Source: Hoplostethus atlanticus (taxonomy: Eukaryota > Chordata > Actinopteri > Trachichthyiformes > Trachichthyidae). Taken from it: a DNA stretch of 64,000 nt. A program made the position numbers and the translations under genes. The stretch lies in contig JAXDDX010000001.1 of the NCBI GenBank assembly GCA_034670405.1, positions 4,754,501-4,818,500 on the forward strand, given 5' to 3'. The notes beneath the pieces were generated by a model, which did no database searches, was not told the DNA's origin, and saw only the letters and a program-made list of their open reading frames with translations. The stretch's first letter is position 1. The number at the start of each line of letters is the position of its first letter. Below are positions 6,001-48,088 of this stretch, one piece after another.

Positions 6001-9000
6001 ATGAAGTGTTTCTACTGGCCAAAAATACTTTTCACTATGTTGGCTGTTGATAGATGTTTACAGTTTACAGATGTACAAATTTACATTTCTGTGCCATGCA
6101 TGAAAGTTGTGCTTTTTTGCCTCACTTTAATCTGGTATGTTTGAATCTTTTTAGGACCTCATGGAGCAACAGGGGAATCAGGACAAAACCATACGCAAGT
6201 TGAAAAAACAACTTAAAGTTTATGTGAAAAAGGTTGAAGAATTTGAAGGTAATCACATGGTAATGAAAAGCGTTCACATATTCCCTGGATGGCTTTAGCA
6301 CAGTATTTACCTTGTTATGCTTTACCTTGTGGCCTTCGCTGTGTTTAGCGTCCGCTCAGCAACAGAGTACGACTTCCTGGCCCGTCAGTTGGGCGAATAT
6401 CACCCGCAAGGAGAGAGTGTTTCAAGGCATGCTCGAGTACAAACAAGGTGACGAAAGCCTCCTGCTTAAGAATCTGGTCGTAGGTATGCCAACGCTTTTT
6501 TTCTACTATTTTATTATAGTATTTATTTACTATATTTATTTATAGTATTTAAAAGCTTTTCATTGGTGAAGAAAATGTAATTGCAGCATGTTGTTCAAAA
6601 GGCCTTTTATATGTTGTGATCTTCCAAGATCTGAAGCCCCACGAAGTGGCAGTCAGCTTCATTCTTGGGCTGCCGGCCTACATCATCTTCATGTGCCTAC
6701 GTTATGCTGACTATGTTGATGATGAGCGGCGAGTCAGCACACTACTCAATTCCACCATCAGCAGCATCAAAGGGGTCATCAAGGTGCAGTATACGACTTT
6801 ACTTTGTGCAAATGAGATGACTGGTGTGTTTAAAAACTAATCTTTGCACTATTTCTATAGAGAAGAGGAGGTGACTTTGAAACAGTGTCTTTCTGGCTGG
6901 CGAACACATGCCGGTTGCTGCACTGTCTGAAGCAATACAGTGGAGAGGAGGTAAGCACATATATAAGATATCGATGCCAGCATTATGCTTCCTTGTGTAC
7001 ATTCTTTCCAAACCATGGATGTCTCTTCTCTTCAGGTCTTCACGAGGCACAACACTCCTAAGCAGAACGAGCACTGCCTCTCCAACTTTGAACTGTCAGA
7101 ATACCAGCAGGTCTTTGGTGACCTGGCCATCCAGATCTACCGCCAGCTCCTCAAGTGCATAGAGGACATCCTACAGCCCCTGATTGGTGAGGGGAAATAA
7201 TCCCCATTATCCTCAAATAATCTCACTATACATGATTTCTTTTATCTAAACTCTACTTGTGCCTTGGCCAAAAGTCCCCTTCCTGTTTGCAGTAAACTTT
7301 TAACCAATTCAAAGAAACAGGAATTACAGGAAATACCCTTCCCTTCACTGGCTACCAGTGTACTATTAACTTTTAAGGCTCTACATGGTCATGCCCCTAG
7401 CTACTTGACTGGCCTTTTAACCCCCTGTGAGCTGGAGCATAACCTAGTCTTTGAGGGGGTGGGGCGTTTTTGTCTTTAGTCCCGACTAAAGACTAAAGGT
7501 GACCTGCCATCAGGATCCCTAGTCTTTGCCCGAAAAATGATTCCTTTAAATCCCTCCTCAAACTATTTTTATGAAAAGGCCTTTTATTAATATCTGTTTA
7601 TTTCTCCTGTTTTTTTGTTCTTGTTTTATTCAACTTTTACTTCCATGTTTTGTTTTGTTTTTTTAAAGCTAATTTTATTTGGCATTTGTTGGTTTTGGCG
7701 TTTGTTTTGCCTATGTGGTATACGCCTTACACCACTGAGCCACCACACTTTATTATGTAATTATTCTATTTTTATTTCTCTACTGTTTAGACTTTATTTT
7801 TATTATTATTTTTGTTAAGCACTTTGTAACTGTGTTCAGAAAAGTGCTCTACAAATAAAGTTACTTATATACACTATGTTGCTCAGAAGTCTGACCATAA
7901 CAACTTGAAAATACACTGTTGTTTTTTTTCATCCGTCTAGTGGCGAGCATGCTGGAGCGTGAGACAATCCAGGGCGTTTTGGGGTCCAAACCAACGGGCC
8001 TCAGGAAGAGAAGCTCCAGCTTCTCAGACGAGGATGCCATTACAGTGGAAACCCTCCTCCAGCACCTCAGCCTTTTCCATGCCACCATGTACCAGCATGG
8101 TCTGGACCAAGAACTCATCAAGCTGGTGGTCAAGCAGCAGTTTTACATCATCTGTGCCGTCACCCTCAACCACCTGCTGCTGCGGAAGGACATGTGCTCC
8201 TGGAGTAAAGGCCTGCAGATCAGGTACAGGAGGGAACACTCACTAGCCTGTCTGTATTTATAGTTGAGAACCAGAATCTGTTTCAGTTTAATTGCCGAGT
8301 ATATCTATGTGTGGAATTTACACTGGTGCACAGACATATTTATAACTTTCAGGGTTTCACAAAATACATATTGACACACATTGTAAAAGGACAACCTGAC
8401 CTTTGACAGTGCATGACATACTATATATTACATTACAGTCATTTAGCAGACACTTTTATCCAAAGCGACTTACAATAAGCACATTCAACGTAGGTAGGCA
8501 CGAGAACTACTAGTCACCAGAAATCGTAAGTGCATTTCATTCCTAACCAAGCATCTAAGAGCAGAACTAGTGCTACGGTAAGAGTATCTACCTACTTTTT
8601 ATTTAGACAAAGTAAAATAAAAGTATTTATAAAGTATTTATAAGTAAATAAACAAGAGCTAAGACAAATAAGTGAAGCAAATAAGCAAGTGATATATATA
8701 TATATATTTCATCACTTTGATTAAAACAAGTGCGCTAGCACTTTCTAGGTGCTCAGGGGTATAATGTAATTGGAGTGGCATAGAGCAACAGTAAATACCA
8801 TTTACTGTCTCATTGGGGCTAATTCTGTACGTACATCCTCACACACACACACCCACAGACTCCACCAACACTGAAACACACAGAGCCCAGCTCTTACAGA
8901 GGTGATCTGTCCCGAGAACCTAATAAAAAAAACTCTCTCTAATTTGAACAGTCAACAATATTTTAATTTAACATCAGCGATACTGTGGTTATACAAAACA

Positions 9001-11937: not shown

Positions 11938-22080
<10,143 letters not shown>

Positions 22081-36439: not shown

Positions 36440-37331
36440 TCAGTGCCGATTGCACTGAGTGTGTTGAAGCTGTGTCGCTCTGGGGATGAAGCGCATGGCC
36501 AGGCTGTGTTCGTCCTCCACAGGCTGCTGCGACAGGTTGTTGGTCTGCCGGATGCTGCTGAGGGTGCAGCCAAGGTGAGGGCACACCGTGTAGCGAGACA
36601 ACAGCGTGACCAAGATGGCCTTCATCATCACCATGGCGATGTGCTTGCCCACGCAGGAACGAGGCCCGCAACCAAAAGGCTGGAAGAAACGACTGGGCAC
36701 CTGCCAGAGAGAGGAGGTAAAGAATGACCTGTTTTTTTTGCAGACCCACACGTTCTTCCATTTCTTTCACCAGACTTACTATTTTGTCAAAGTTCTCCAG
36801 GCTGAATTCATTGGGTTTTAGGAAGAACTCAGTCTTATGCATTAGACCAATGTTGAGGATGATGTTGGTTCCTTTCGTAACTTTAGTGCCCTCAATGTTG
36901 TCATCTTCCAGAGCTTTTCGCATTGTGAAATCAACCACAGGATGGAACCTCAGAGACTCGTTGATGAAGCTCTCCAGCACTTTGAGGTTTTGATAATCAA
37001 TGTGCTCTGCATCTTTATTACCTGATAAGGAGAATACAAGGAGGGTTTGTTAGAATTCTTTTATTTTTCACATGCCATAGAGTGAAATTTTAGTTAACAT
37101 GAAATTGTTAATCTGGCACTAGTCACCCAAGAGAGTGTTCATCTCCTCCACTATCCTCAGCTCTACTTCAGGGTTTTGTTTCAGCAGCATGAGCATGAAG
37201 AACAGGCTTATGGACAGGGTGTCAGGCGCCGCAATGACCATCTCCAACACACACTGTCTGACATTGTCTCCTGAGAGCTCTCCATGATTCTGTTCAACAG
37301 AAGAATGGACACACACACGCACGCACGCGCG

Positions 37332-37374
<43 letters not shown>

Positions 37375-39807
37375 CAGACCATTATTATCTGCCTCTGACT
37401 TAGAACGTATTATCCACGGCTTCATTTTTTCCCGTCTCGATTACTGCAATACCCTCTTCACTTGCCTTAGTCAAGCTGCCCTGGCACGTCTTCAGCTTGT
37501 ACAAAATGCAGCAGCTTGGCTATTAACTAGGACTGGCCGTAGATCTCACATCACCCCTATTTTAGCCTCACTACATTGGCTGCCAGTAAAGTTCAGGATC
37601 GATTTTAAGATTCTTTTAATTACTTTTAAGGCACTACATGGGTTAGCTCCTGCCTACATTTCAGAGCTACTAAGCCCTTACACCACCGAGCGGTCACTTA
37701 GGTCATCCAACCAAAACCTGTTGGCTATAAAACCTACTGTTTTAGGATGGCCTTTTTATAATGTCACGGGTGTGCTCTGCAACTGGTTGCTGTTCGTATG
37801 TGTGTTGTGTTTGTATGTACTTTTGAATGTATTTTCTTTGTATGTGCTTTGTGTCTGTGTTTTCCTTTTTCTGTATCTCTGCTGATGTAAAGCTCTTTGT
37901 AACCTCTGTTAAAAAAGGTGCTATATAAATAAAGTTTTACTTACTTACTTACTTACACATTCAAAACAACCTCAGGATGGTTACTCTTTGAAACAGATAG
38001 TATAGATTCATCAAAGGAGACAGACCTGGGCAAAGATTAGTTCTGATGCAAAGTCAAGATCATCATCCAGGTTCTCAGATTCAGCAATAGTCTTTCTTTT
38101 AATTTCAATGAGGCTTTCCATTGCATCCTGTAGTTCTTGGCTGTTAACACAAAAACAATCGATTAGGTATTAGAAGTCATAAGCCAAATGTTCAATTCAT
38201 GTAGTGTGTGAAGGTCTTACGCTGCTTTCTTATGCTTATTGTACAGCCATCCAATTTTGAAAAATATATCAGGCTTGATCAGAACTGTTTGCCAGGTCTC
38301 AAAGTAGTTTTGGATCTTCTTTAGCAGGTCCTTTTCTGAGTTGTGAACAACAAAAAGACAACAGGTACAGAAAGCTGCATGATTCAAAACAAGAACTGGT
38401 CATTTATTTACCAGCAGAAAAAGCCCCATAGTGGGACTATACAGTGTGTATGGAGAGTGAACACATGGCTGACCATTGAGAGGAACCCGGAGGAACAGCC
38501 TATTAGAGATGTCCACCACTATGGACCTCAGCAGGTTGAGAGCATCCACATGGTCAGACAGGTCAGTCATCTCCTGCAGGCGGTCTAGGTGCTTGTTTGT
38601 GGAGCTCTCACAGATTCCCACTGTTCTCTGAAGACCAGGTCCTGTGAGAGCTTCCGTACCAAACAAAACAACCAAGTGTTTCAAATACCATAGTCAGAAC
38701 AGTGCAAGGCAGAGGCAGCATTTCAGTCACTGTCAGACTTAAATCTACACAAGGCTTTTTTACATGAAAATATTTTACTTTATTATTTTTGATAGTTGCA
38801 ATGTGGAGAAATTGTATCTATCTAGCTATCTAGCTATCTAGCTAAGATGCTTGCTCACCTTTTGCAAAATATGTTCTCACTTTTTTCCAGAGTGGGACAT
38901 CACTGTTGAAAATGATACCTTTCCCTTTCATCCCAATACACTCCAGCCCTTTTTTGCTCCCAAATCTGGATATGTAATGGGTGCTCCGCAGAACATGATA
39001 GACTGCAGCGGACCTACAAAAGAAGCCTGGCTTTTATATCTCTCATTACTGATTGGTTGCATGAACTGCAACTGCTGTAAATAAGTGGAGTGTAGAGAGT
39101 GATCTGAACAGGACTTGCTTGCTGAGAATGAGTGTTTCCTCGCCGTTAATCCAGACACGGACAATGCTGCCATATTTGTTGTTGTAGTAGTTGCTTGCTG
39201 TTCCTATCCCGGTCCAGATGAACCTGATATAGGTAAGAATAGGGCCAAATCCTGCACAGAAAGCAGGACCTGGCAGAGACCAGAGAGAGAAACATAATAA
39301 TTTGGTCCAGTAGGGTGATGTAGTAAGTAGAGAGGCTACCCTTCAACTGCAGGATCCCAGTTCAAACGGACGGCAAGCATCCACCCTGCTGGAGTGTCCT
39401 TGAGCAAGACACTGAATCCCTACCATTTTAAGAGGAATTGTTCTGTAGCTTTACTCTAACCTCCATGTGGTGGGGGGCAAGCAAAAATGGATTTCCTCTA
39501 TGGGACTAAATTATTATTACATTCATAAAGTGCTGCACTTCTGAATGTTAAAAACTGCAACTACCATTACCATGCAAGGTCAAAAATGTGAAAGAGAAAA
39601 CCCTATTTCTGACACTCCCAAACACCCCATTCACAGAATGACTTCATTACGTAAAACCTGAAGTTTGTTACCTGGTGTCTGTGACCGGTTTGTTCTGCTC
39701 CAGACAGTGAAGAGCAGGAGGCAGAGCAGCAGAAGCAGAAGAGCGGTGACACCAGACACTGTATGAGCCACGATGGGGCTCATGAAGAGAGTCTCCAGAG
39801 GCATCAT
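36440..39807 (-). CDS. cyp19a1: Aromatase, cytochrome P450 19A1
   Basis: ER-membrane P450 that converts androgens to estrogens. Coding exons in transcript order: 39807-39672, 39269-39119, 39013-38859, 38650-38474, 38335-38221, 38140-38026, 37289-37127, 37021-36780, 36700-36440 (TGA). They total 504 residues, normal for the family, and all phases close. Visible: N-terminal membrane helix ([16 protein letters not shown]), proline hinge [19 protein letters not shown]-helix with [15 protein letters not shown]-helix ESLR, and heme loop [18 protein letters not shown] with the cysteine ligand. The first ATG pair is at 39807-39802; GTG codons upstream are not starts. The exon ending at 39119 uses a GC donor. 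Fish often have ovarian (a) and brain (b) copies. Synteny with gldn and ap4e1 suggests the a copy, but a noncoding first exon is more b-like, so the paralogue is left open. Confidence 0.94.
37307..37372. repeat. (CA)n microsatellite in cyp19a1 intron 6
   Basis: Near-perfect CA/CG dinucleotide run in the intron (37290-38025), abutting the LINE fragment that begins at about 37373. Confidence 0.95.
37373..37957 (+). mobile_element. L2-clade LINE fragment (ORF2 C-terminus, 3' tail) in cyp19a1 intron 6, antisense to the gene
   Basis: A readable frame from about 37409 encodes [63 protein letters not shown], the conserved end of L2/CR1 reverse transcriptase proteins. The frame is lost soon after 37745. 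The 3' end reads 'taaagctctttgtaacctc', then 'gtgctatataaataaagtt', and finishes in (ACTT)n at about 37939-37957, as in fish L2. The copy is 5'-truncated, so it cannot move by itself. Confidence 0.85.
38815..38845. repeat. (TAGC)/(TATC) simple repeat
   Basis: Run of 'tatctagc' units in the cyp19a1 intron next to the donor of the exon ending at 38859. Confidence 0.8.
39300..39530 (+). mobile_element. tRNA-derived SINE-like element in cyp19a1 intron 1
   Basis: Begins with a tRNA-like segment whose B-box-like part is 'ggatcccagttcaaacgg', followed by 'gagtgtccttgagcaagac', a phrase shared by several teleost SINE families. Target duplications were not resolved, so the edges are approximate. Confidence 0.5.
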
Positions 39808-41815: not shown

Positions 41816-44800
41816 ATGAAGGACAGGAGTAGCGTCGTTCTTCCATGGACTCTGCAAGTGCTGCTGGTGGCGATGTGTGCACTGCTGGTCCTGAGTGCAG
41901 CAGGCTTGGTGTTCCTGCTGGTTCAGCACAGGGACCTGACAGACCACCTTGTTAGGTTGGATGCCCAAATGCAGGTGCTATCACAGAGTTGTAGGCTACA
42001 GGCAGGAATCCTCCGGAACACCGAGCCTGAAGAGGCAGGGCAGCTGAAGCAGCTCCTCCGCAGTAGAAGGAGCCGGGGAGGCGAACTGACACACAGCCAT
42101 GGCAAAGAGCAGAAGGACATGCTGATGATGATGACATACTCTATGGTCCCCGTAAGATACTGATCCGCTTGAAAATAGACTGTGAAGTGGTGAATATTAT
42201 AGGCTGTTTCTCTGAATTTCAGGAATGATTTATTATTATTATTTAACCCTGTAAACATGGAAAAATAAATAAATTAGTGAATTTATGATTGCTGTCGTTA
42301 TGAGAGAGAACAATGGAGGACTCAACATGAAGTATTTTCACTCTCATTTCCTCTTTTTCCCCTTGTGGGATAAGAAAAGTGTCCATTTGACGCAAAGAAT
42401 AATACTCTGAAATCCAAGAATCTGCTACAGTGATTAAGAGGCGGTCTGTTTTTCCAGTGAGTGTTTCCTGGGGAAATACCTTGAGCAGAGGAGCATGACT
42501 GTTGCTTGGTCTTCCCTCTGCCATGCTCACATCATCTGGGAATTGGCATTGCTTCAGAGGAGGTCAACACATTTATCAATGCTACACAACTATTAATAGA
42601 AATAAACCAATAGAAACAATAGAATAAATAAACCAATAGAAAACCATGGAATAAATAAACCAATAGAAATACCAGGTTCATTATCAGGTTGACTGATATG
42701 GTTTTCACTCAGTAAATTCATGTAGGGAATAATACTATTACTACTAGTACTACTACTAATTGGATTATTATTACCACTTATCAAAACAGAGTTACAAACT
42801 GCTTTACAAGAGAGGCTCATGATGGGCTCATGAAGCAAATCGGCATCACAGTCACACTCTCACTCTCTCTTGGTTAATCGGTAAGTGATTAATTCCAAAT
42901 AACATTTAATTCACTTGACTATGCCTCTCTGTTTTGCTTTATTTCAGCTCAAAATCTTTGTAGATCTATGTAACAGCTCCAGAGGGATTTGTTTAACAGG
43001 TACACTTCATGAATACGCTCTGTTCAAAACCTAATGTGTTGATGATGGCAACTGTCCTCGGTTCTTCACTGATGTGCTTTATGTAAAATGTTGTTCATTC
43101 ATATTTATTTTATTACAGGCCCACCTGGACCTCCAGGTAAAAACAGACATTCTGACTGACTGTATCATCTACCTCAAGTTATCATGGTATTTGTTACTTC
43201 ACCCATAACACTTTTGCTCAGGTTTGCCTGGGCAGGACGGTTTACCAGGACCACCGGGTGAGCCTGGGTTGGAGGGGAGACGAGGAAGAAGGGGTAAGAG
43301 CTGTGATCCTGTGACGCTGTGTAGTGGAGCTTTGATAGCACAGCCCTGTAGACGAACCCCTATAGGAAGACCAAATATGTAAGAGACAAATCCACCCAGA
43401 AATAGAACATATTTCACATATAACATATATTTCACATAATAATTCCAACAATCTTGGCTTGTTCAACCACTGTTTCTTAAAATGAACAGCCCTTCCAACA
43501 GTACAGTTCACAGAGCCAAGACTGTAACCAGTTTGATACCAAAAGACACTTTCTGTGGTGGCTCCATTGGGATAGTATGGGAGATTGATTTTTGGAGCTC
43601 ATAATGTTGAAAATGTGGCCATATCCCTACAAAATCACCCAGCGCACTCATTCATTCGCTGGGTCATCCCAGTGTCTCTTGATGACATCACAGGTTGGCT
43701 CTATTGTATTTAGCACTAAGAAAGTTGTTCATGTTTACAAATCTGAGCTCAACTGTTGAAAATCATAGGAATAACATGTGGGAATCCTGCTTTAGGTTGG
43801 ATTTTCATTTTAATACCTAAACACACTCTTTAAATGATTGACAACTCATGTCAATGCCCACATTGTCCAGGACCCCCTGGTGAAAGGGGAGAGCCAGGAC
43901 CTAAAGGAGACACTGGGCCACCAGGACAGAAAGGCGAGACCTCCAATGATGTTATCAGTGAGTGTAAGAGAAGACAATGTACCCTCCCTGACATGAATGA
44001 CATGTGATTGACACGAAGGGGACATCACTGCCTCACAGCGCTATCAAACTCAGTCAGATCAATATTCACTCCATTATGAAACAACACTTATCAAAACCAT
44101 TTATCATTCTCTCAAAAGCCATCACCTTTACATAGTAAGTATACATCGATGCCAACATTTAATTTAGTTTTTCTATTAATTTCAGTTCAATTTTGATCTA
44201 ATCTAATTGAATTCAGGTTTTAATTGGGCAAATTGGTTCAGATAGAAAATTTCACTTTAATGTCACAAATCGATGTCATCATAAATCACTCAGATTAATC
44301 CTATCTTCTGATAATTTCTTAATTTTGAAGACCCTGTGTGATTGATCAGCAGTGTTGTTCAGCAGCTCAGTCTACCATGTTGTATCTGTATTTGAAGGTC
44401 CTCCTGGCCCAAGGGGACCACCTGGTCCTGCAGGTCCACCTGGTCCACTCGGTCCACCTGGCCAGTATGAGTCTCCAGAGGAAACAGCAAATACGACCAT
44501 CACAGCACACATCCATGAAACCAACACACCTATGGGTAGGAACCGCCATGTTTCATCTTCACTACCAAATGACACCATGACACAAGCAAAATTTCAAATC
44601 TTTGAAAACCAGTAAAGAATAATTTCTTTTAGCATAAAGCCTTGGGTATCAACACATTGATATTGAATGGTGTTCATTATTACTTCTATCCCAGTCCTTC
44701 CATAAAATAAATATTTTGTTGATTGTATATTGGTTAAGTTATTGATTTTTCATGTGCATATTGGCTTAATTATTATTATTATCATTATTATGATATTGTA

Positions 44801-47800
44801 ACTAAATCAAAAGGTTATGTTATATTTCTATTTCTTCTCTACAACTTTAGCTTCATCTCATCCTTTCCTGACTAGTGACGACTTGAATGAAACCAACACA
44901 GAAAATATTACCGACTCACCAAATAACATGACTGGTAGGAAATAATTTAGTTTAAATAAAACATGTAACAATATAGAAATATAGAATATAGACTGCATGT
45001 GATTTAGGGAATCAAATAACTCTTCAAATGTATTTCTCAATTTGTGTAATCTCTGTACAATCCCACCTACTTGAATCTCATCTTTCATTCCACAGAATTA
45101 CCATCACCATTTCCAACCGATGATGCCTGGAATGTGATTTACTCTGAGAAAGTTCTCGACACAAATACAGAAGCAGGTAGGCGTCCATTTTGAAAGGCCG
45201 GAAGATTTCATGTACGATTGTTTTTATTCAAAGTAATTTCAATACCCTCTTTAATTCCATAACTGTGTTTAGTATGATCTAGAAATGTAACAATATGACG
45301 AGTATCAACTCATGACCTGGTTCAATACACAATATTAGGTTTATGATATAAAAAATAATGTTAAAAATAAAGCAAAGGTGCCTGCAAAGGATCGGGTTTA
45401 GGCTTGGTTATTTGTTATGGACAATGCCTTGTTATGTTGGCATTAAATTGTGATATTTGTGAATATTCTAGTTCAGTTGTAGTTAGTCATATTGGATTAT
45501 GGCTATAACTAATATCATCATCCATGTTCCTGTTCTTGTATCTTACATATAAGGGCCACACATGGTCATCAAACAACTTGAGCACAATATTTATTCAGTA
45601 CATTCTCAGCTTGACAAAGCATATAGGGACTATTTCATATTACAATTGCACAACATTGAATTGTCACGTCTACTATTGAAATGTACTGATAACATTCACC
45701 GCTGCACAGGATGTGATGCAACTCTTGTGCCATAATCCAGGTTGAGCGTCCACACCAAGCCCAAAGCAGATGTCAAAAGAATGAACCACTGACCCACAAG
45801 CAGTGGTTCTCAACCATGTGCCCGGAGCCTGCAGGTTTTCCAACCAATCACTACATCAAGTGATTTCACTAATTAATTCCCCTCTCTGGTTGAAGGTGTT
45901 CAAATCAGTGAAATCAGCTGCTGTAGTTTTTGGTTGTAATGACCAACTCAGGCACACCTGAACCAATTAGAGGCCTCATGTTTCATGATACTTTAATTGG
46001 TTCAGGTGTGCCTGAGTCCTGCAGGACAGGGGGTCCTTGAGGACTGGATTGAGAACCACTGCCTAGAGGACACCAGGCTGCACTGTACCTCCCATCATAT
46101 ATCACATTATTGATCCTATGCATAGAATGTAAACTGTATAATGACATGAAAAAAATTAAGCCCAGTTCTATTTTATTTCCTACAGAATTAGTATCATTTC
46201 ATCCAGACTACAGCAATGACACCTTGAATGACACCAACACAGACGATGTTACAGAGGCACCTATTAACTTGTTAACTGGTAGGTAATACTGATTTATAGC
46301 ATGAAATTATTCAGAATTATGTTAAATACCAATTACCCTTTACATCTTACTCAAAAGTGCAGCAACATAATATCTATGAAATCTATGAAAATGATCATCA
46401 TACATCATACCCCATTCATCATACCCCATTCAGCTGCTTCTTTCTTTCTACAGCCTCGCCTTCTGCACACCCAATTCAAAACAGTGACAGGTTCAACAGC
46501 ACTGACAATGAAAACCTTGTAGACAGACCCATGAAAAGTGGTAAGAATATATAATCTGTATTTTGTCATTTTGGATTTTATGTGTCAGTATTGAGTATTA
46601 GTAATGGAAGTAAATGATTAGTAATGAAATACATTATAAACGCTATGATATAGATACACATTGCACAATAATAATATAATGTACTGCTTACAGTATTACA
46701 TTGGCTACAGTCAGGATTAAAACAACCAAACATAAAAAGTTTTGATTAGTCCAAGTGATAGAGCTAGATCAATAAATGATATAACTATAATTGTAAACTG
46801 AAAACAGTTGAAAAGAACATTAAAGAACATTAAGGTTTGTTTACATGAAGGTGTTTGAGTTGAATACTTATATCTCATAACACTCTTTACCTTGTCTTGC
46901 CTCTTCCACCTGATTAGAACTCTTTAAAAGTGAAAGCAAAGATTAATGCTTTCACTTTTTTCACATTTTCTCGTTACTGCTTTAGCCTTGTTTTATCCTC
47001 TCCAGAACAATGACATGTTGAATGTAACTGGCACAGAGAGCTGGACAAAAACTGGTAGGAAAATTCAGAAGTTTAAAATTATTTTGAGTGATCACCTTGT
47101 CTACGTAGTATTAGATCTATCTATCTATGCACTGAATTGTTCATTCAAATACTGAAATAGTTTTCTCTATTCATATAGAAAGCATTATCAAAACTATAAC
47201 ATGTAATGAGAAAGTCATCAAAATGCAAAGTACGTTTGGAGCCTGGATGCCTGATGCAGCCCAGCTGAATGAAGACCAGTACTGGCTGGTAGAGCATTTT
47301 TCAGGTGCCCTACAGAACAATTTCTCATCACATCCATTTTTCACAGAACTTTGTGACTTTGTGTAGATTTATTTTAGAAACCTTTCCGTCCCAGGTCGAT
47401 TCATGGTGGAATACAAGGACATTTCAGCATTTCAGAATACCAGCAAGATCATAGACATCAAGAAGTTCTACCAGGGATGTGGTCATATGATTTACAATGG
47501 GTCCTTTTACTTTCACAATGCAGGAACAAACAAACTCATAAAGTAAGTGCTTGTGTTACACATATAACATAAGACTCTGTACACAGTTTATAAACTTACC
47601 CCTTATCAATGTTTTGCTTTTACAGATTTGACCTAGAGACGAGGAGAACAAACACTCTGATAATTGAAAACACCAGATACCATAACCTGACTTATCTTTT
47701 CCACAACTCAAAGACATATTTTAAGTTTGCTGTGGATGAAAATGGACTGTGGGTCATCTTTGCATCAAAGTTTGATGATACTGTAATGGTTGCTAAGCTA

Positions 47801-48088
47801 AACCACAGGGCATTCTCTGTGGTATCTGTCGTTAACACTGCCTACCCTATAAGGAAAGCTGGAAATGGCTTCATTGCATGTGGGGTACTATATATCACTG
47901 ATGACAAAGACAAAAGAGTTACATATGCCTTTGATTTAAAGAAAGAGATCGCTCTGGATGCAAATTTTGATTTAAGGCCAGCTAATAGCATCCTGGCTAT
48001 GCTGTCATACTATCCGAACAAACAGCTTTTGTATATGTGGGACAACAGCAGTGTGAAAATCTGCAAAGTTATATTTTCACTGGATTAA
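41816..48088 (+). CDS. gldn: Gliomedin (collagen-like and olfactomedin domains)
   Basis: Type II transmembrane and shed protein of myelinating Schwann cells that clusters sodium channels at nodes of Ranvier by binding neurofascin and NrCAM. Exons: 41816-42151, 42948-42999, 43119-43136, 43222-43293, 43871-43957, 44398-44535, 44851-44934, 45096-45176, 46186-46278, 46454-46540, 46986-47054, 47179-47304, 47395-47542, 47626-48088; 617 residues (human about 551). The membrane segment is near residues 13-38 (LLVAMCALLVLSAAGLVFLL). KDMLMMMTYSMVP then DLCNSSRGICLTG precede Gly-X-Y collagen repeats (43119-44465). Five short exons follow with N-glycosylation sites (see findings). The olfactomedin domain starts at 47179 and includes YFKFAVDENGLWVIFA, AGNGFIACGVLYITD and FDLRPANSILAMLSYYP. 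ATG 41816 was chosen over an in-frame one at 41720, since the latter adds an atypical stretch. Confidence 0.94.
44851..47054 (+). repeat. Array of five related, frame-preserving exons in gldn
   Basis: Exons 44851-44934, 45096-45176, 46186-46278, 46454-46540 and 46986-47054 are 84, 81, 93, 87 and 69 bases. Each is a multiple of three, begins and ends in phase 1, and ends in a Gly codon split by a 'g|gtaag' or 'g|gtagg' donor. Four of the five carry a D-x-LN/FN-x-T-style core (DDLNETNTENIT; DTLNDTNTDDVT; DRFNSTDNENLV; DMLNVTGTES). The fifth (45096) is more diverged. Confidence 0.75.
45801..46061. mobile_element. hAT-like MITE (261 bp) in a gldn intron
   Basis: Terminal inverted repeats cagtggttctcaa and ttgagaaccactg, with no ORF between. 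Flanking 8-mers cccacaag and cctagagg match at 5 of 8 positions, a possible decayed hAT target duplication. A perfect 23-base inverted repeat lies inside at 45947-45969 and 45994-46016. Confidence 0.7.

Follow-up and report, generated by a model that had tools for sequence, protein, structure and literature searches.

A tandem array of duplicated linker exons in one of two gliomedin genes of Hoplostethus atlanticus

Gliomedin in mammals and in the window

Gliomedin binds NF186 and NrCAM, clusters sodium channels and helps to form the nodes of Ranvier. In mammals, furin and BMP-1 generate the secreted form that is found at the nodes, and oligomerisation, incorporation into the matrix and binding to NF186 are promoted when the olfactomedin domain is released, according to the available text of PMC3810605. 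The human gene, GLDN, has 10 exons according to PMC9221880. Adjacent homologous exons within one gene are known from other vertebrate genes, e.g. exon 5 of SNAP25 (excerpts of PMC2581893 and PMC9741552), and the gene described here has such exons likewise. A literature search combining gliomedin with exon duplication retrieved no report of a linker array, within a partial view of the literature outside which most subscription journals lie.

The stretch of DNA analysed here, the window, comprises 64,000 nt of the Hoplostethus atlanticus assembly GCA_034670405.1 (JAXDDX010000001.1:4,754,501-4,818,500, forward strand). On its plus strand, between positions 41816 and 48088, lies one intact gliomedin gene with 14 coding exons, a product of 617 amino acids and a sole, terminal stop codon; its introns are GT-AG, and frame and splice sites are kept in all exons. 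Exon 1 (41816..42151) holds the start codon, a transmembrane segment by hydropathy (residues 15-33, mean 2.78) and a putative furin-like site, RSRR, at residues 82-85, N-terminal of the collagen stretch. Exon 2 (42948..42999, 52 nt) precedes three collagen exons, exon 3 (43119..43136, 18 nt), exon 4 (43222..43293) and exon 5 (43871..43957), the last two of which are also supported by Pfam. The collagen ends and the linker starts in exon 6 (44398..44535). Five further linker exons follow, namely exon 7 (44851..44934, 84 nt), exon 8 (45096..45176, 81 nt), exon 9 (46186..46278, 93 nt), exon 10 (46454..46540, 87 nt) and exon 11 (46986..47054, 69 nt). The olfactomedin domain (OLF) begins in exon 12 (47179..47304), continues in exon 13 (47395..47542) and occupies exon 14 (47626..48088) together with the stop codon; Pfam and PDB matches support all three of these exons.

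Both Pfam matches of the product were above cut-off (collagen at 130-183, 50.4 bits; OLF at 378-612, 208.5 bits), and the order, with the collagen stretch first and the olfactomedin domain at the C terminus, is that of gliomedin, the vertebrate colmedin. The transmembrane segment, furin-like site, collagen and olfactomedin domain are shared with mammalian GLDN. A PDB search with the window OLF returned three gliomedin chains at the top (4xav, 5yby, which we take to be the human chain, and 4d77; 240-244 bits) and noelin next, at 116 bits; its sequence thus places the domain with gliomedin rather than with other OLF families. We take 4xav as the mouse chain because its length of 271 residues is that of the construct 279-549 given in the available text of PMC4488277, and 4d77 as the rat chain because it carries the Gln that the same text gives for rat. 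Residue 20 of 4xav aligns with window residue 373, which would therefore match mouse residue 298, with 297 residues before it if the construct is as that text describes. On the same footing, the window gliomedin would have about 75 more residues ahead of its OLF than the mouse protein. The earlier note gave the human protein a shorter, different linker; as regards length and by counts only, this agrees with the 14 exons of the window gene versus the 10 reported for human GLDN and with the apparent 297 mouse residues before the match to window residue 373.

Relatedness and age of the linker exons

From the sequence of the window, the earlier note had described five symmetric phase-1 exons of 69-93 nt between the collagen and olfactomedin domains and had read them as tandem duplicates that diverged. 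The exons are present at 44851-47054 within the intact 617-residue frame, all bounded by AG and GT and all in phase 1-1. However, this phase is common to exons 3-12, and the symmetry is therefore a property of the gene rather than a marker of the array or evidence of duplication.

Two lines of evidence support common descent. First, when exons 7, 9, 10 and 11 were compared in all six pairings, at most one of 2000 codon shuffles (0-1/2000) reached the local protein score of a pair. Secondly, in leave-one-out profile comparisons each of these four exons scored above all of its 3000 shuffles. Exons 7, 9, 10 and 11 are thus clearly homologous beyond composition, and their similarity exceeds background. 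At the DNA level, no shuffle reached the scores of pairs 7/9, 7/11 and 9/11, the similarity of exons 10 and 11 was moderate (p = 0.004), and that of pairs 7/10 (p = 0.39) and 9/10 (p = 0.14) was not significant by shuffles. Exon 9 is nearest to exon 7, with which it forms a 100-nt repeat of 70% DNA identity that covers most of both exons and includes about 20 nt of upstream intron.

Exon 8 belongs to the array by position and phase but its similarity is weaker. Its profile score was reached by 58 of 3000 shuffles, and its p values against exons 7, 9, 10 and 11, in that order, were 0.001, 0.10, 0.0005 and 0.01 for global and 0.0065, 0.067, 0.036 and 0.11 for local protein alignment (codon shuffles). 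It is a probable further duplicate, and the reading of all five exons as diverged duplicates is accordingly clear for four and probable for one. The moderate score of exon 8 against its own shuffles is what would be expected if the array exons merely shared the composition of Asn/Thr/Asp-rich disordered sequence. Such an account is scarcely credible for the array as a whole, in that shuffles that keep composition do not reproduce the pair or profile scores of the other four exons, and composition does not account for the long DNA repeat of exons 7 and 9; for exons 7, 9, 10 and 11 the shuffles rule out pure composition.

When intron flanks were aligned as well, as the earlier note proposed, those of the array exons showed no similarity to one another beyond the splice sites, and only 1 of 42 comparisons fell below 0.05 (exon 6 with exon 8). 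No further hidden or dead copies of array exons were found in the 64-kb window (best extra profile match, E = 1.8), and a genome search for DNA copies of exons 7 and 9 returned two matches, the exons themselves. Neither the tail of exon 6 (455/3000) nor exon 12 (239/3000) matched the array profile significantly. Single-pair p values for the exon 6 tail, which come from 21 pairs and three tests, were 0.004 (DNA, exon 7), 0.0245 (DNA, exon 9) and 0.018 (global protein, exon 8), and a remote relation to the array is therefore possible. The intron between exons 8 and 9 contains inverted repeats at 45838-46017 (27-nt arms, 96%; 37-nt arms, 81%), possibly a transposable-element remnant.

Between copies, synonymous difference (pS) was 0.28 for exons 7 and 9 and ranged from 0.53 to 0.87 in the other nine of the ten pairs; because it is high in those nine pairs, we regard the array as old. 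Nonsynonymous difference (pN) was 0.27-0.51, with 0.27 for exons 7 and 9, about equal to their pS. In all ten pairs, which are not independent and come from short exons, pS exceeded pN, but the margin was no more than 0.07 for 7/9, 8/9 and 8/10. Much of the array thus seems, from these substitution patterns, to have been under some constraint as it diverged, of which the youngest pair, 7/9, shows no sign.

The second gliomedin gene and the neighbourhoods

A genome-wide search for OLF domains (633 Mb, 1161 contigs) returned 41 pieces, one group of which, on contig C9, is a second gliomedin that the earlier note had missed and that is without the array. This sister gene (L011, 1314-4571, minus strand) is intact, with 10 exons, as in the available account of human GLDN, 573 residues and no internal stop; it has one GC donor, after its exon 5. 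It matches the window gene exon for exon, with all intron phases identical. Exons 2 and 3 (52/52 and 18/18 nt) and one further pair (126/126 nt) agree exactly in length, exon 6 is homologous to its sister counterpart, and the other exons differ in length. The only difference in plan is that the sister has a single linker exon, of 105 nt, where the window copy has five. The two OLF domains are 57% identical (139/245). Among the best candidates of 27 matches there are two gliomedin-grade OLF loci in the assembly, the window (96-99%) and C9 (57-59%), with the next at 36%; contig C212 (L013, L014), considered as a candidate relative, is not gliomedin (26-29% identity).

Both gliomedin genes adjoin cyp19a1-like exons in opposite orientation. 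In the window these are minus-strand exons near 36.5-37.0 kb that match Pfam P450 and are presumably cyp19a1. Among the best candidates scored, the assembly has two close cyp19-like loci (98-99% and 73-74%), with the next at 49%. An AP4E-type adaptin gene lies beside the P450 gene in the window. Contig C9 carries TNFAIP8 and a Rav1p_C match that falls below the curated cut-off (24.5 vs 27 bits) and that we take, at this sub-threshold level, as DMXL2; a third C9 frame matched no Pfam family. Pig GLDN adjoins CYP19 in opposite orientation according to PMC8067493, and the window gene does the same. In the available passages of PMC9141715, gldn, dmxl2 and tnfaip8l3 are neighbours of cyp19a1a and ap4e1 is a neighbour of cyp19a1b; the cyp19a1a/cyp19a1b pair is ascribed there to the teleost genome duplication. 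The neighbours found here fit those passages, and the array therefore belongs to the cyp19a1b-side gliomedin copy. Judged by their neighbours, the two copies sit in the paired neighbourhoods expected of teleost genome-duplication twins. In its passage on the neighbours of cyp19a1b the same paper does not list gldn, and many teleosts may therefore have lost the cyp19a1b-side gene.

The sister linker exon has the same position and phase as the array but scores no better against the array profile than many shuffles do (507 of 3000 were as high). Its best pairing, with exon 11, gave an uncorrected p of 0.03-0.04 among many tests. Descent of the array from a single exon of this kind therefore rests on position and phase. 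The lack of recognisable kinship between the sister exon and the array copies, together with the age of the array, would also be expected if the array were ancestral and had disappeared from both the sister gene and the mammalian gene. We consider this improbable, since the sister gene and human GLDN, as described in the available text, share a count of 10 exons and an ancestral array would need at least two independent losses. By that human count and by the sister gene, the array is also not common to all vertebrates. Most likely it was gained in the window copy, long ago, although the order of events is a reconstruction.

Other open frames occur in the window. One, at 37262-37882 in the aromatase gene region, looks like the final part of a LINE-type reverse transcriptase polyprotein. 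Two more, at 7901-8260 and 21022-21381, are alike by eye, and the second has a DIL-domain match; perhaps they belong to class V myosin genes in tandem. According to the available text of PMC10449831, gldn levels in the female gonads of Pacific bluefin tuna increase while the sexes differentiate; given the aromatase neighbour, shared regulation is conceivable.

The tether and its possible function

The linker of the window copy is, as had been claimed, a long one: 162 residues, rich in Thr, Asn, Ser, Asp, Glu and Pro, with a net charge of -23 and eight sequons, whereas the cyp19a1a-side sister has a linker of 50 residues with one sequon and a net charge of +2. Disorder is predicted for both linkers and a folded state for both OLF domains. 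One sequon of the window linker lies in exon 6 (N220) and seven in the array: N247, N253 and N260 in exon 7, N300 and N304 in exon 9, N335 in exon 10 and N362 in exon 11. In four of the five copies a sequon occupies the same aligned column (N247, N304, N335 and N362), in line with the remark that most of the exons share N-x-S/T; exon 8 has an Asn there, outside any sequon. Against residue shuffles the excess was weak, at eight sequons versus 4.4 expected in the linker (p = 0.044) and seven versus 3.8 in the array alone (p = 0.055), and sequon density was rejected as proof of selection. As a prediction, the linker is probably glycosylated.

The observation made in the earlier note is therefore sound, and its interpretation is supported in part. 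We think it reasonably probable that the cyp19a1b-side gliomedin gained a tandem linker array after the teleost duplication and with it a longer, bulkier tether for the OLF. The genome duplication would have left two gliomedin copies, each beside a cyp19a1 gene, and the single linker exon of one would then have been copied in tandem to give five exons, four of them clear copies and one probable. The array can be read in frame, and splicing would be expected to include it. The flexible region that separates the collagen trimer from the olfactomedin heads would thereby have grown from about 50 residues, as in the sister, to its present length, and would have gained the acidic charge and eight possible N-glycan sites. 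The most likely effect would be more reach, or wider spacing, of the heads from the trimer, and binding might change with it; a longer tether could also alter BMP-1-type release of the heads. Against the mammalian background of furin and BMP-1 processing, the simplest reading of the sequence is a longer, acidic, probably glycosylated tether in one duplication twin.

The main rival to this explanation is neutral growth, in which a redundant copy came under weaker constraint, its disordered linker tolerated extra exons, and the added length has no function. The window OLF carries more unique changes than that of the sister (42 vs 16, p = 0.0009, with mouse as outgroup; 40 vs 18, p = 0.005, with human) and has the longer branch (0.49 vs 0.21), so that relaxed constraint is possible; the near equality of pN and pS for exons 7 and 9 and the predicted disorder of the linker point the same way. 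However, with noelin as outgroup the difference in the OLF was not significant (22 vs 16), and the domain is intact and gliomedin-like. Frame and splice sites have been kept throughout, and the same-column sequon persists in four of the five copies despite the large synonymous difference in nine of the ten pairs. We therefore hold neutral growth to be unlikely, though a serious contender.

A further alternative is that the linker exons are cassettes, from which splicing picks subsets by tissue or stage to give a stalk of variable length. All 32 subsets of exons 7-11 are in frame, giving proteins of 479-617 residues, but the common 1-1 phase of exons 3-12 would give such neutrality in any case. 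Donors were scored with a weight matrix. Those of exons 7 and 11 (2.45) score below those of exons 8-10 (3.97-4.54); all five nevertheless exceed the 95th percentile (1.49) of a set of 135 regional GTs that contains the true donors, as well as the donors of exon 6 (0.50) and exon 12 (-0.43), and therefore nothing marks the array donors as weak. We rate regulated skipping as rather doubtful, and we are equally hesitant about its stronger form, in which zero to five cassette exons would serve as a molecular ruler set by splicing, with graded stalk length and glycan load; if true, neither the sister copy nor mammals would have that role. Length and phase of the array exons do not force mutual exclusion. 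In contrast to the SNAP25 type, whose exons are mutually exclusive in the excerpts cited above, all five copies here can be included in frame, within a linker predicted to be disordered.

On the preferred explanation, that of a tether lengthened in one twin, a long-linker gliomedin beside a conventional one in the same genome would offer a natural experiment on whether a change in the length and glycosylation of the linker adjusts adhesion or shedding. The pair would also show how exon duplication can reshape one of two genome-duplication twins.

The two fish proteins also differ from the mammalian ones within the OLF. Human and mouse gliomedin are without an OLF disulfide, the site being Arg476 in mouse, as stated in the available text of PMC4488277. 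In the alignment, window Cys549 falls opposite mouse Arg476 and opposite a cysteine of noelin, and the sister copy has a cysteine there too. Both fish gliomedins have another cysteine near the start of the OLF, Cys381 in the window copy, and this is a possible disulfide partner of Cys549.
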